Source: Egibacter rhizosphaerae
Lineage (GTDB): Bacteria > Actinomycetota > Nitriliruptoria > Euzebyales > Egibacteraceae
DNA: 64,000 bases
Direction: 5' to 3'
NCBI RefSeq assembly: GCF_004322855.1
Contig: NZ_CP036402.1
Span: 62,001-126,000 of the forward strand
In this document: in pieces, positions 55,739 through 61,776 of the stretch
Layout of the letters: the number at the start of each line of letters is the position of its first letter
How positions within the stretch are numbered: the first letter of the stretch is position 1
Translations under genes and position numbers: made by a program
Notes under the pieces: generated by a model
Seen by the model: only the letters and a program-made list of their open reading frames with translations
Database searches by the model: none
Told to the model about the DNA's origin: nothing

Positions 55739-55773
55739 CCTCGACTACTTGTGGGGGTGCTGACGGGTCCGCT
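55739..55773. repeat. left copy of the island-flanking direct repeat
   Basis: A 35-nt copy of the 3' end of the reductase gene at 60.6 kb. The last 16 nt, TGCTGACGGGTCCGCT, are identical in both copies and the first part differs at three bases and a 2-nt indel. It starts at the base after the glgB stop codon. Even the reductase stop codon is preserved in altered form (TAG for TAA). Confidence 0.8.
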
Positions 55774-56057
55774 CGGTAGCGACGTGCGGCCCTGAGGTCG
55801 GCGGGGTCCTCGAGGATGCCGGGGTCGGGCCGCGGTGATGCTTGCTGGGGCGGGTGTCGGGGCAGCCCGAGCCGGCCGGGTGACCGCTTGTCGTGCTGGG
55901 CTGGGTTGTCAAGGCGCGCCGGTCGGCGGGCTCAGGTGGGCCGGGGGGGCAGCGCGCGTAGTCTCGTGAACGCGGCCAGGAGCTCTGCGGTCCAGGGCCA
56001 GTCCCGGGGACAGCGGCCGTTCTACCCCCCAGGCTCGCCGTTACCGACGCGGGCTCC
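55774..56057. other. unassigned GC-rich sequence left of the IS630 element
   Basis: 284 bp with no convincing gene. Short frames exist on both strands but show no start signal or recognisable domain. It may be the remnant of an older insertion. Confidence 0.5.
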
Positions 56058-57148
56058 TAGTGTCCTGAGTCGGAGATTCGTTGGCAATATTCGGAGAGGG
56101 CGTGGAGGATCTCGTCGGCGGTCTTGTGCCACGCGTACGGGCGGGGGTTCTCGTTCCACGTGGCGATCCAGTCGCGGATGTCGGATTCGAGGGCTTGCAC
56201 CGAGGTGTGGGTGCTGCGCTGCAGCAGTTTGGTGGTCAGCTCGGCGAACCAGCGCTCGACGAGGTTGAGCCAGCTGGCGCCGGTGGGCGTGAAGTGCAGG
56301 TGGAAGCGCGGGTGGCGCAGCAGCCAGCGTTGGATCTCTGGGGTCTTGTGGGTGGCGTAGTTGTCCAGCACCAGGTGCACGTCGAGGTGGTCGGGCACCT
56401 CGGCGTCGATCTGGTTGAGGAACGTCTTGAACTCGGCGGCGCGGTGGCGGCGGCGGTGCTGGCCGATGACCTTGCCGGTGGCCAGGTCCAAGGCGGCGAA
56501 CAGGCTGGTGGTGCCGTGGCGGACGTAGTCGTGGGTGGCCCGCTGGGGGGTGCCCGGCAGCAGCGGGAACACCGGCTGGGTGCGGTCGAGCGCCTGGGTC
56601 TGGGACTTCTCGTCCACGCACAGCACGACCGCGCGCTCGGGCGGGTCGAGGTAGAGCCCGACGATGTCTCTGACCTTGTCGATGAAGTCGGGGTCGGTGG
56701 AGACCTTGAACGTCTCGGTCAGGTGCGGCTTGAGGCCGAACGCGCGCCAGATGCGGCTGACTGCCGTCTGCGACATGCCCGCCGCGGCGGCCATCGACCG
56801 CGTCGACCAGTGCGTGGCATCCGGCGGGGCCTCCTCCAAGGTCTTGGTGATCACCCGCTCGACGTCGGCGTCGGTGATCTGGCGGGGCGCGCCCGGCCGC
56901 GGCGCATCCGCCAACGCGTCCACACCGCCAGCGACGAACCGTCGCCGCCACTTGCCCACCGTCGCCTCGCTGACGCCCAGCTCGGCGGCGACCTCCCGGT
57001 TCGACGCGCCCCTCGCGCACGCCAGCACGATCCGCGAGCGCTGCGCCAACCGCTGCGACGTCTTGGGACGGCGCGCCCACCGCTCGAGCGTCGCCCGGTC
57101 CTCATCGGACAGCTCCAACGTGGCCTTTGGCCTGCCACGAGCCGCCAT
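56057..57148 (-). CDS. IS630-family transposase
   Basis: 363 residues from ATG 57148. HTH part [45 protein letters not shown], linker [15 protein letters not shown]-type region, second [31 protein letters not shown] catalytic triad: [19 protein letters not shown] (first Asp), [15 protein letters not shown] (second Asp) and [18 protein letters not shown] (Glu). The frame is intact, so the enzyme may be active. The stop codon TAG is made from the TA target and the flanking G (minus strand), just outside the inverted repeat. Confidence 0.93.
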
Positions 57149-57216
57149 CGCCCATCCTCTCATCGGAGGAAGGGATCGTACCACATTATGCAACGAACTT
57201 ACGATTCAGGACACTA
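56058..57216. mobile_element. IS630-family element, 1159 bp including TA duplications
   Basis: Terminal inverted repeats of about 26 bp begin TAGTGTCCTGA at both ends (56058 on the plus strand, 57216 on the minus strand) and share TCGnAnnTTCGTTG further in. The outermost TA pairs are the target duplication typical of the IS630/Tc1 group. The right TA is inside the CTAG that borders the IS1182 element. Confidence 0.92.
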
Positions 57217-57217
57217 G

Positions 57218-58988
57218 GGCGCTGCTGAAGTAGTCGCTTTGAACATCGTTGGTCAGTGGTCGTGGTTGGGTCCGCGACCGCTCTGGTGTGGTTTCGGTGG
57301 CGGTCGTTGCGGCCGCCGGTGCGCTTGACGGCCGATGGGAGGCGCCGTCGGCCCGGCGGCGTCGGCTTGTAGGCGTTCTCGAGGGGTATTGGGGTCCTCA
57401 TCAGGTGGTTGCGGGCATCTGCCAGCCGTGGTCGTAGTGCATGCCGAGGTTGAGCAGGCGTGTGAGGTTGACCGCCGCGACGCGGAGGCTCAAGCCGAGC
57501 TGGTTGCGTTTGACGCCGCGGTAGCGGCAGCGGCGGTGTCCGTCTTTCATGAGCCAGGAGATTGACCGCTCGGCCAACGACCGTCGCGGGTAGGTCTCGG
57601 CGAACTCGGGCGTGGCCGCTTGAGCGCGGGCGGCGACCAGCTCGCGGTCGTGGCGGCCGATGCGCAGGCTGCGTCCGGATCGGCTGGTGGTGCAACGGTC
57701 CCGCAGCGGACAGCCGTCGCAGCGGCGCCCGAAAGTCGCGTGGCCCTTGGCGCTGATCGCCACGGTGTGGCCGGCCGGGCAGGTGACCGTGCCCGCATCG
57801 TGGCAGACGGCGAAGTCGTCGCGGTCGAAGCCGCCGGGCACCGCGGGGCGCAGCGGCAGCGGCTTGATGACCGCGGTGTGCCCGGTGGCGTCGAGGTCGG
57901 AGCGGGTGGCCCCGCCGCCGTAGGCGGAGTCGGCCAGCACCTCGACGGGCTCGTCCTCACCCTCGAGCAGTTCGACCGCGACCTCGCCGTCGCCGGTGTT
58001 GCCGGGCGTGACGGTGTTGGCGGTCACCAGCCCGGTCTCGGGCTCGCAGGCGATGTGGCCCTTGTAGCCGTCGCGATACGAGGCCCGCGACTTGTGCGCG
58101 TGCCGCGACTCGTCATCGACCACCGACACCACGCGGTCCTTGGCCACCGCTCGGGCGATGCGCCACGTGCCGGGCTGCTCGCCAGGTTCGACGTCCTGGC
58201 CGGCGATCAGCGCCAGCAACGCCACCGCCCGCTCGGCCTCCTCGTCCAAACCGGTCACGGGCAGACAGTCGATGATCGCGATCGCATCCGCCACCAGCGC
58301 CGACACCAGCGCGTCACAAGCGACCTCGTCGTCCCACGCGATGTCAGGCTTGCCGCCATGATCGTAGTCATGCGCGCCGACCACGACCTGGCGGGCCTCG
58401 GGCACCAGCCTTCTGACCTTGCGGATCGCGGCCACCAGCTGGGTGACAGTGTCCTGAGTGGCCACCGCATCGTCGAGCACCGTGGAATCCAACGCCCGCC
58501 GCGCCTTGCCGGCCAACACCCCAGTCTGCGCAGCGACAGTCTTGACCGCCTCGTCGATGCGGTGCGGGCGCTCGGAGTCGTTCAGCCGACGCCGCCAGTA
58601 CACAAACACCGACGCGTCGAAGCTGTCCTCGTCCAGCCCCATGCCGCAGGCGGCCTTCCACGCGATGTCGCGCGACAGCGCCGCCGCAGCCTGACGGTCC
58701 GACAAGCCCTCCAACTCCTTGAGCACAAACGCCGCCGCGATCACGTCCGCCGGCACCGACGGGCGGCCCCGCCCCGACGGGAACAAGTCAGCGAACATCT
58801 CGTCGGGAAACACCCGCCGCCGATGCTCGGCGAGGAACGCATACACCGACCCCGCCGGCACCAGATGCCCGCACAACGCCGCCGTGTCCAACAACTCCCG
58901 GTCCGCCACGCTTGATCCCAGCATGAAGCGCATTCTCGCGCACCCCACCGCCAGAACCGCGGAACCTCGACGGATTCTTCAGCAGCGC
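57218..58988. mobile_element. IS1182-family element with CTAG target duplication
   Basis: Inverted ends GGCGCTGCTGAAG (57218-57230) and CTTCAGCAGCGCC (58976-58988) flank one transposase. CTAG is present directly outside both ends (57214-57217 and 58989-58992) and is the likely 4-bp target duplication. The element abuts the IS630 element; both use the same CTAG. Confidence 0.88.
57401..58933 (-). CDS. IS1182-family transposase
   Basis: 510 residues from ATG 58933 (the start that gives MRFMLGSSVADRELLDTAAL; GTG 58948 is possible). N-terminal transposase_InsH-like region with SVPADVIAAAFVLKELEGLSDRQAAAALSRDIAWKAACG. Catalytic parts KARRALDSTVLDDAVATQDT, VLADSAYGGGATRSDL and the DDE_Tnp_1 C-terminal region with CPAGHTVAISAKGHATFGRRCDGCPLRDRCTTS, a cysteine cluster typical of IS1182. 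SLAERSISWLMKDGHRRCRYRG holds the terminal Glu region. The frame is intact. Confidence 0.93.
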   Translation of the reverse strand: MRFMLGSSVADRELLDTAALCGHLVPAGSVYAFLAEHRRRVFPDEMFADLFPSGRGRPSVPADVIAAAFVLKELEGLSDRQAAAALSRDIAWKAACGMGLDEDSFDASVFVYWRRRLNDSERPHRIDEAVKTVAAQTGVLAGKARRALDSTVLDDAVATQDTVTQLVAAIRKVRRLVPEARQVVVGAHDYDHGGKPDIAWDDEVACDALVSALVADAIAIIDCLPVTGLDEEAERAVALLALIAGQDVEPGEQPGTWRIARAVAKDRVVSVVDDESRHAHKSRASYRDGYKGHIACEPETGLVTANTVTPGNTGDGEVAVELLEGEDEPVEVLADSAYGGGATRSDLDATGHTAVIKPLPLRPAVPGGFDRDDFAVCHDAGTVTCPAGHTVAISAKGHATFGRRCDGCPLRDRCTTSRSGRSLRIGRHDRELVAARAQAATPEFAETYPRRSLAERSISWLMKDGHRRCRYRGVKRNQLGLSLRVAAVNLTRLLNLGMHYDHGWQMPATT

Positions 58989-58992
58989 CCTA

Positions 58993-59111
58993 GCACTCCC
59001 ATGTGTAGCCGATGTTTCATTACCTCTTGACTACATCCGTGTCCACCGTCATGCTGAGCAGGTCTCGTTGCCTACTAGTAGCACTCACCGTCCATCTAGG
59101 GCGAAGGGTAC
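58993..59111 (+). promoter_or_regulatory. promoter region of the exported-protein pair
   Basis: A stretch of clearly lower GC than its surroundings. TTGACT (59026-59031) followed after 17 nt by CATGCT makes a possible -35/-10 pair. GAAGGG lies 4 nt before ATG 59112. Confidence 0.4.
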
Positions 59112-59756
59112 ATGTTGATACATCCAAAGCGGCTGCCACTCTCCCCCCTCGTCATGCTCACGATTGTCTTCGGCGTAATGGGCGCTGCTGTTCTCGCCAT
59201 AACCGGCGCTGCGTACGCCGATGGAGACGATGAGCCCGTCAAGAGTCCGGACACCCCGGAAGAACTCACGGACATGAAACTCCTCGACTCCGGCAGGACG
59301 CCATACTACGCGCCCGCGGGTCTAGCAAAATACTTTGGCACGGCAGTGTGGTGGGAAACCTACACCTCCCAAGGACGCCTCTACTACCACGTCGAGAGAG
59401 TGCATTTCCGGGGCGGCACAGCCGACTCCCCATGCGAAAGCAATCCATCCGGCATCGACCATTGGGTTGCCGCCTCAGCAGTTGTCACTCACGAGTATGA
59501 GGACCACACGGTCGAGTCCATTCCCGGGTCATCCTGGGAGCGCACCAACTGCTACCCGTACGGCTCTGAGTCGGGGGCTACCTATCAGCCGTGGACGAAC
59601 GCTGCCTATTCGGATAGAGTCCTTCGCTCGACATTCCATGTACACCACGCAGACGAGGACAACCCGAACTTCAGCTTCTCCTCCGACATGCACTGGATCG
59701 TGAACTCCAATGGCGCCGAGCCCGAAGACCTAGCGACGTGCGAACTGAACTGCTAA
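59112..59756 (+). CDS. exported protein of unknown function
   Basis: 214 residues, no family recognised. A signal peptide (LVMLTIVFGVMGAAVLAITG, cleavage after AYA near residue 36) leaves a mature part of about 178 residues. That part is rich in Tyr, Trp and His (YYAPAGLAKYFGTAVWWETY; GIDHWVAASAVVTHEYEDHT; STFHVHHADEDNPNFSFSSD) and contains four Cys (in SPCES, TNCYPYG, ATCELNC) that could form two disulfides. The pattern suggests a beta-rich extracellular domain. GC content and codon choice (AAA, ATA, AAT) are unlike the neighbours, a sign of transfer. It is followed after 10 bp by a lipoprotein gene. Confidence 0.75.
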   Translation: MLIHPKRLPLSPLVMLTIVFGVMGAAVLAITGAAYADGDDEPVKSPDTPEELTDMKLLDSGRTPYYAPAGLAKYFGTAVWWETYTSQGRLYYHVERVHFRGGTADSPCESNPSGIDHWVAASAVVTHEYEDHTVESIPGSSWERTNCYPYGSESGATYQPWTNAAYSDRVLRSTFHVHHADEDNPNFSFSSDMHWIVNSNGAEPEDLATCELNC

Positions 59757-59766
59757 AGGGAGCACT

Positions 59767-60588
59767 ATGAGCATGCAGCAACGCAGTCAACGTCGCCTGT
59801 CTCCGCACGCTGGGGGCACATTGATCCTCCGTGTGCTTCTCCTTTGTGGCACCGTCGTCGTGTTGCAAGGTTGCCTGCCAGCCGATGGGGAGGATGCCGC
59901 CCTTCTCTCGCCCGGCGAGGAAGGTTCCACGTCGACAGCGAAAAGCGCAGCCGCGGAAACGCTGGGACCTGAGGATTTGAACTGGCCAGTGGAGATTGAG
60001 TACATACTCGGTGGCACGGTGCAGCCCGGCACGGAAGGGCGAGTGGAAAGCGTAACCCACGTGTTCCGGGCCGCCGCCTGGAACGACTGGTTCGACGCCC
60101 GCTACGACCGGGACGGCGAGTTGGTCTCCTGCACGCAGCGGACCCCCGACACGCTTCGCACATCAATCCAGAGCTGCTCCGAAGGATGGCAGACAACGCG
60201 CGACCATCCGCCCGAGGAACGTATCGCTCCCAATCCGCATCTGCGCCCGGCAGATCTCGAGGCCGTTCGCGCCGCCCCCCACGACGCGGTCGAGGCGCAG
60301 GCGACAGTCGCAGAGCGCCTCGACATCAGCGAGGACGAACTGGTCTCCTCCGCGGAGGCGAGCATCATCGACTGCCGCCACGAGCAGTCGGCCTATTGCG
60401 GCGACAGCGATGGTGAGATCGACGTCGAGGTCGAGCAGGTCGCCCACGAAGGGAGCGGGATGATCCTCGAGTACCGCGAGACGGCCGACGGAGTGCCGGT
60501 CAGCTACCTCGAGGTCGAGGGTCTCAGAGCCCTGGACGAGGACGAATGGTCTGACAGCGCCGAGACGCTGACGCGCTCGGGGGGCTAG
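59767..60588 (+). CDS. putative lipoprotein of unknown function
   Basis: 273 residues, no family recognised. The N-terminus RLSPHAGGTLILRVLLLCGT followed by VVVLQGC gives a lipobox with the lipidated Cys at 36. A Ser/Ala/Glu linker leads to a domain with NWPVEIEYILGGTVQPGTEGRVESVTHVFRAAAWNDWFDARYDRDGELVSC. The remainder is acidic and contains CSEGW, IDCRHEQSAYCGD and a closing strand MILEYRETADGVPVSYLEVEGL. AAGGGAG lies 4 nt before ATG 59767. Its stop is only 6 bp from the stop of the convergent reductase gene, so the island joins the chromosome without spacer. It probably acts with the exported protein encoded upstream. Confidence 0.75.
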   Translation: MSMQQRSQRRLSPHAGGTLILRVLLLCGTVVVLQGCLPADGEDAALLSPGEEGSTSTAKSAAAETLGPEDLNWPVEIEYILGGTVQPGTEGRVESVTHVFRAAAWNDWFDARYDRDGELVSCTQRTPDTLRTSIQSCSEGWQTTRDHPPEERIAPNPHLRPADLEAVRAAPHDAVEAQATVAERLDISEDELVSSAEASIIDCRHEQSAYCGDSDGEIDVEVEQVAHEGSGMILEYRETADGVPVSYLEVEGLRALDEDEWSDSAETLTRSGG

Positions 60589-60621
60589 CCTCGATTATTC
60601 GTGGGTGCTGACGGGTCCGCT
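60589..60621. repeat. right copy of the island-flanking direct repeat
   Basis: 33 nt covering the native 3' end and TAA stop of the reductase gene. It matches 55739-55773 (see that entry) and marks the right limit of the island. Confidence 0.8.
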
Positions 60622-61776
60622 GCCGAACAGCACCGGATCGCGGGGCCCCGAGCGCCGACCGACGAGCAGGTGGCCCGCCGTCCCCACGGCGAGCCGAGGC
60701 GTGATGTGGCCGCCCCCCAGAGTGAGCTCACAGAGGTCGTCGAACGCGCCCTGTCGGCGTGCGGTGGCTGCGACACCCGCCTCGGCGACGGCCCTGGTGC
60801 GCACCAGGCGAGCCAGCGTGCCGGTGTGCCGCAGATGCCGTCCGAGTAGGGAATGCAGATCGGCTGGGTATCGACGGGCTGCGGTCCGGGGATCGCCGGC
60901 CGCCGCCCTGCCCGCGAGCTCACCGCTCGCGAGGGCGTAGTAGATCCCCTCGCCCGAGACGGGGTTGATGAGGCTCGCGGCATCGCCCACGAGCAGGATG
61001 CGGCCCACCGCAGCGGGCGGCCGATGACTGCTCACCGGCAGCGGATGGCCGAGCACGGTGTCGGGATCGAGACCCGTCGGGCCGAGCGCGTCCTCCAGCG
61101 CGCCGAGGAAGTCCTTGCGCTGGCCGGGGAAGTCCGCGCGGAAGGCGCCGTAGCCGACGTTGGCCCGCCCGTCTCCGATCGGGAACGTCCACGCGTACGA
61201 GGGCCAGTGCGCGGCCACAAGATGGATCCGTTGCACGGCGTCGTGCGCGGGCGCGTAGGCCCGGATCGCCACCGCCAGCGCGTGATCGGGATTGCGAGCC
61301 AGACCCAGCGCTCGGCGCACCACCGAGTGCGCGCCGTCGGCAGCGACGAGCGTCCGTGCGGCGATCTCGCCGTCGACGACCACGCGTCCCGGACGGGTGA
61401 CGAGGCTGCGCACGCGATGCTGCCGGTGGACCACACCGGCCCGTTCGGCAGCGACAACGAGCCGTGCGTCGAATACGGCGCGGGGCACGACCCGGTCCGG
61501 GCGAGACAGTGGGCGGGTCACGGTGCGACCGGACGGGGCGGCGAGCGAGAGCCTCGTGACCTGCTGGTAGTCGTCGACCACGTCACCGACACCGAGCCGG
61601 GCGAGGACGTCCATGGCGTGTGGAGCGATCCCGTCGCCGCAGGACTTGTCGCGGGGGAACTCGGCGCGGTCGAGCAACAGGACACTGGCCTCCGGGCGGG
61701 CCCGGCGAGCGGCCAGCGCGGCGGCCGACCCCGCAGGCCCCGCGCCCACCACGACCACGTCCCACGGCCCGTCCAT
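60595..61776 (-). CDS. geranylgeranyl-reductase family FAD oxidoreductase (menaquinone-reductase-like)
   Basis: 393 residues. FAD site DVVVVGAGPAGSAAALAARR (GxGxxG at 11-16), the family segment FPRDKSCGDGIAPHAMDVLARLG, RVVPRAVFDARLVVAAERAG, VAADGAHSVVRRALGL and LVGDAASLINPVSGEGIYYAL. This group saturates isoprenoid chains, as in geranylgeranyl reductases and MenJ, which reduces one menaquinone isoprene unit in actinobacteria. No men genes are nearby. An ATG with AGGAT at suitable distance starts at 61776. A copy of its 3' end lies 4.85 kb away beside glgB. Confidence 0.88.
   Translation of the reverse strand: MDGPWDVVVVGAGPAGSAAALAARRARPEASVLLLDRAEFPRDKSCGDGIAPHAMDVLARLGVGDVVDDYQQVTRLSLAAPSGRTVTRPLSRPDRVVPRAVFDARLVVAAERAGVVHRQHRVRSLVTRPGRVVVDGEIAARTLVAADGAHSVVRRALGLARNPDHALAVAIRAYAPAHDAVQRIHLVAAHWPSYAWTFPIGDGRANVGYGAFRADFPGQRKDFLGALEDALGPTGLDPDTVLGHPLPVSSHRPPAAVGRILLVGDAASLINPVSGEGIYYALASGELAGRAAAGDPRTAARRYPADLHSLLGRHLRHTGTLARLVRTRAVAEAGVAATARRQGAFDDLCELTLGGGHITPRLAVGTAGHLLVGRRSGPRDPVLFGSGPVSTHE

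Follow-up and report, generated by a model that had tools for sequence, protein, structure and literature searches.

Two probable passenger genes, for a putative surface lipoprotein and an orphan secreted protein, in an insertion-sequence-loaded insertion beside glgB of Egibacter rhizosphaerae

We analysed a window of 64,000 nucleotides (bases 62001-126000 of the single 4,637,169-base contig) from Egibacter rhizosphaerae, in which two adjacent open reading frames were called on the plus strand, both of them intact. Gene A (59112-59756) encodes a protein of 214 amino acids, and gene B (59767-60588) a predicted lipoprotein of 273 amino acids. Inspection of the sequence revealed a Shine-Dalgarno-like GAAGGG upstream of A (59099-59111, plus strand; GAAGGG-TAC-ATG), and a second such site before B (AAGGGAG-CACT-ATG), which overlaps the end of the stop codon of A and extends into the 10-bp gap between the genes (59757-59766, plus strand). 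The description of this locus in the initial annotation as two coupled genes, 10 bp apart and with good ribosome binding sites, was therefore borne out, and the spacing is as tight as that of a bicistronic system. In both genes the GC content of the codon positions followed the order GC3 > GC1 > GC2, a composition of coding type, and a simple estimate places the chance of an open frame of 214 codons at the base composition of A at roughly 1 in 1000. No promoter-like site was found upstream. Judging from their arrangement, A and B are probably co-transcribed, and the close spacing along with the strong Shine-Dalgarno sequence of B suggests translational coupling; such an arrangement could reflect a selected partnership in the lineage of E. 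rhizosphaerae.

Protein A begins with a hydrophobic segment ending in TGAAYA|DGDD, a Sec-type signal sequence from which export is predicted. The mature part (~177 residues, pI ~4.6) contains four cysteines, and Trp, Tyr, Phe and His make up 17.5% of it, in agreement with its earlier description as a secreted, four-cysteine protein rich in Tyr, Trp and His. Protein B has a Lys or Arg near its N-terminus and a cysteine following a hydrophobic stretch (VVVLQG|C), as in substrates of signal peptidase II, and fits the PROSITE PS00013-type lipobox pattern. It failed the stricter Gram-positive pattern because of the Gln at position -2, and the lipobox, which had been called clear, was thus supported by one pattern but not by the other. 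Translation of B may start either at the ATG at 59767 or at the TTG at 59821, since the latter aligns with the ATG of a paralogue (see below) and would place the cysteine at position 18 of a protein of 255 amino acids. The mature domain of B (~205 residues) is strongly acidic.

The stop codons of glgB and of the convergent gene of the geranylgeranyl-reductase family lie 4856 bp apart in the window. In four relatives the corresponding gap is 25 bp (L019), 4 bp (L020), 48 bp (L024) and 134 bp (L025), the first two being from the same family and the other two from the same order. This empty site identifies the 4.86-kb segment as an insertion (genomic island) at the junction, and agrees with the earlier proposal that A and B are the only cargo of an IS island. 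Directly 3' of the glgB stop is a 265-bp remnant of an IS1380-family right end (55739-56003, plus strand), 83% identical to L006:3623-3891. It is followed by an IS630-family element (56056-57218, minus strand) with 28-bp terminal inverted repeats and a transposase gene at 56057-57193 on the minus strand, and by an IS1182-family element (57214-58993, minus strand) with 17-bp perfect arms that include the CTAG target and a transposase gene at 57401-58948, also on the minus strand. The IS1182-family element is inserted at a CTAG adjoining the IS630 end, and both elements lie on one side of A and B. A second IS1380 right-end remnant of ~32 nt (60590-60621, plus strand) abuts the stop codon of B, has the same orientation as the copy at 55739, and extends into the convergent reductase gene at its 3' end. 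The IS families were assigned with curated models, by which the transposase at L006 belongs to the IS1380 family.

Neither an IS1380 transposase nor an inverted left end is left in the insertion, and the cargo is not bounded by inverted ends on which a transposase could act, as it would be in a composite transposon or an ISEcp1-type unit. Since the two IS1380 right ends are direct rather than inverted, and no IS1380 transposase is present, the insertion does not constitute a functional composite transposon. It resembles cargo mobilised by IS1380-family elements of the ISEcp1 type in that an IS1380 right end lies immediately next to one end of the cargo, at a CTAG-like site, but unlike in an ISEcp1-type unit, both remnants derive from right ends and face the same way, and no functional transposition unit is formed. 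Recombination between IS1380 copies is a possible origin of the insertion. The IS1182-family element is located in a CTAG site, and CTAG also adjoins both the remnant downstream of B and the IS1380-type element at L006, which suggests that these IS1182-family and IS1380-type elements share a target preference. The last codons of the reductase gene (60595-61776), encoding GSGPVSTHE, lie within IS1380 right-end sequence (60584-60621). Alignment with the relatives is lost beyond about residue 377 of the 393 in the reductase, so the original C-terminus was probably replaced by the insertion.

Both genes had been described as low in GC, different in codon use and of foreign character. The GC content of A is 0.591 (GC3 0.72) and that of B 0.657 (GC3 0.78), compared with a GC of 0.723 +/- 0.026 (minimum 0.678) and a GC3 of 0.891 +/- 0.037 (minimum 0.803) for the 35 other gene-like ORFs in the window, so that A lies ~5 standard deviations below these genes and B ~2.6-3. 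The deviation is therefore clear for A, which is compositionally alien, and mild for B. Equally low values were found for a paralogue of B at another chromosomal site (GC 0.659, GC3 0.795), and the low GC of B is thus neither a mark of the island nor proof of foreignness; the case for a foreign origin of B is further weakened by the occurrence of its family within the same bacterial family.

The paralogue of B (G000:C1:1602846-1603612) is 92% identical in nucleotide and 87% in protein sequence, and has the same lipobox. It differs from B in its neighbours, with an acyl-CoA ligase gene upstream and a convergent gene downstream, in the absence of an A gene, and in a longer C-terminal tail (on the scale of 30 amino acids) resulting from loss of the stop codon through a 1-nt length difference. 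Comparison of the two genes gave a Ka of 0.064 and a Ks of 0.156, and the Ka/Ks of 0.41 (bootstrap 95% interval 0.23-0.71) indicates that the protein sequence of B is under purifying selection. The match between the paralogue (L004:5846-6715; G000:C1:1602845-1603714) and the window (59821-60589) corresponds almost exactly to the reading frame, from the start codon to GGGGCTAG at the stop, so that the duplication is gene-exact and the flanks are unrelated. On the right, the match stops at the CTAG that adjoins the IS1380 end in the window. At the site of the paralogue, the acyl-CoA ligase neighbour was not conserved in the relatives, and no B-family member was found there.

A profile built from B detected two further relatives, a complete one (L017:5896-6564; genome G020, the same as L017; JACCTL010000136.1, metagenome-assembled genome 'Euzebyaceae bacterium' MGR_bin73) and a partial one (G004), both within the same bacterial family. 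The partial copy lies at a contig end that cuts its context, with no A gene nearby. The MGR_bin73 protein shares with B a mature domain that starts with WPVxxxY, the motifs VFRxxxWxDW, SCT/TCT, PNxxLR and SGxxLE that are conserved in the family, and a predicted export signal. Cysteines 122, 137 and 203 of B align in all three full-length members and the fourth lies nearby; all four cysteines beyond the lipobox align or nearly align in this distant relative. It differs from B in its low identity (26-28%), in having a signal peptide without a lipobox, and in its location between thiD and rpmB/recG, with no A gene nearby; the names thiD, rpmB, recG and acyl-CoA ligase were given from reading the sequences rather than from a family search. 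A match to B in G024 covered only the signal-peptide region, had no tblastn support and was discarded. No further members were found in the rest of the 66 genomes of the class, in a 396-genome sample of the phylum, or among phages, plasmids and viral contigs. B, its paralogue and the two relatives make up a small family of predicted lipoproteins and secreted proteins that has not been described before and has so far been seen only in one bacterial family of Euzebyaceae-like actinobacteria.

Protein A, which was searched as a single sequence with no alignment, had no relative in its own genome besides itself, in 61 relatives, the 66 class genomes and the 396-genome phylum sample (overlapping sets), or in the plasmids, phages and viral contigs searched. 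One match in G019 (E = 2e-4) was rejected as chance, as it ran antisense to a glycosyltransferase-like ORF and contained a stop codon. The absence of A applies to these collections only, because they include no second genome of the genus, many of the relatives are fragmented and incomplete metagenome-assembled genomes, and genome contigs were searched with short peptide patterns; it may therefore reflect sparse sampling.

Neither protein gave a significant match in Pfam, NCBIfam, PHROGs, PADLOC-DB or the PDB sequences, which upholds the earlier statement that they resemble no recognised family. Weak PDB matches (E = 0.65-0.97) were treated as chance. Structure prediction, which the initial annotation had proposed, yielded no confident model: AlphaFold2 reached a pLDDT of 35.7 for A from a single sequence and of 46.4 for B from a two-row alignment, too poor for use, and a Foldseek search with the low-confidence model of B returned nothing at E below 0.3. 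We considered whether B is a half-barrel lipoprotein like RseB/MucB or LolA, acting as a lipid sensor or carrier. The low-confidence model, which has hairpin strands at the N-terminus, helices, and a further hairpin at the C-terminus, would agree with such a fold, and the 'SG[MI]xLE...' ending of B recalls the TGLLL hairpin of RseB-like proteins. However, apart from export, the likeness to the MucB/RseB family (PF03888) is confined to this tentative hairpin-rich outline, and a profile comparison (hhalign) with nine RseB-like proteins of relatives gave a probability of only 0.3%. Together with the empty family, PDB and Foldseek searches, this makes a half-barrel lipoprotein of this kind quite improbable. 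LppX/LprG (PF07161) had no match anywhere, controls included, so that its silence carries no weight for B. A MucB/RseB-family protein (PF03888) is found in many genomes of the same family (L068, L070-L074 and L077), and the genome of E. rhizosphaerae has no match.

Do A and B form a conserved pair? Their coupled order, the export signals on both and the low GC that they have in common would be expected of surface partners, for example an adhesin or signal protein with its anchor, and with few close relatives sequenced, only one full example might have come to light. Nevertheless, A was found only here and has no relatives of any kind in the collections searched. None of the three other B-family members was found paired with A: the paralogue and the complete distant relative stand without it, and the third lies where its contig breaks off. 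The initial annotation had named a lack of co-occurrence in other genomes as evidence against a two-protein system, and within the searched set the pair indeed occurred nowhere else. A conserved surface pair is thus unlikely, though we give it better prospects than the other alternatives.

In a more specific form of partnership, A would be an antibacterial toxin that is exported, and B a lipoprotein, anchored in the membrane, that confers immunity to it. The two would travel as a self-contained mobile cassette of a secreted effector and its anchored partner, both from protein families without known relatives, and the copies of B that stand alone would be orphan immunity genes. Such a cassette could account for an exported protein encoded 10 bp from a lipoprotein on an IS-rich insertion, for the rarity and alien composition of A beside a B kept under purifying selection, and for the solitary copies of B; gene order is the one feature that speaks positively for it. 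Against this, neither protein matched a family of toxins or immunity proteins in Pfam, NCBIfam, PHROGs or PADLOC-DB, one solitary relative of B lacks a lipobox and sits in a housekeeping neighbourhood (thiD-rpmB-recG), and A accompanies B in no other genome searched, making the proposal quite improbable. We regard as equally improbable that the region is decaying DNA whose reading frames are functionless remnants. The IS-rich, rearranged surroundings, the lost stop and extended tail of the paralogue and the failure to find a promoter-like site would fit decay, but both frames are intact, with Shine-Dalgarno sites, signal sequences and coding-type codon positions, a frame as long as A would seldom stay open by chance, and the Ka/Ks of B and its paralogue is 0.41, with an upper bootstrap bound of 0.71.

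The reading that we favour, and consider somewhat better than an even bet, is that the IS-loaded insertion carries two passenger genes, for a solitary surface lipoprotein (B) and an orphan secreted protein (A), with no conserved partnership. Judged by where they occur, they look more like passengers restricted to their lineage than like a conserved system of two proteins. B would be exported, lipidated on its cysteine and held as an acidic domain at the outer face of the membrane, where its four further cysteines could form two disulfides, and it would work without A. Protein A would be a Sec-exported four-cysteine protein whose gene became, by chance or recently, the upstream cistron of a copy of B; the genes would share a transcript with no dedicated partnership being conserved. 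B would most likely bind a ligand or a component of the wall at the surface rather than act as an enzyme, although this is a guess, as any molecular role for A would be.

If the toxin-immunity proposal were true, the locus would represent a new type of such system, although the evidence now available tends the other way. The locus illustrates that adjacency and export signals are insufficient for calling a two-protein system. It also reveals an IS-loaded insertion site at glgB, and to what is known of a poorly studied group of actinobacteria it adds a lipoprotein family that is undescribed and restricted to one lineage, together with an orphan secreted protein.
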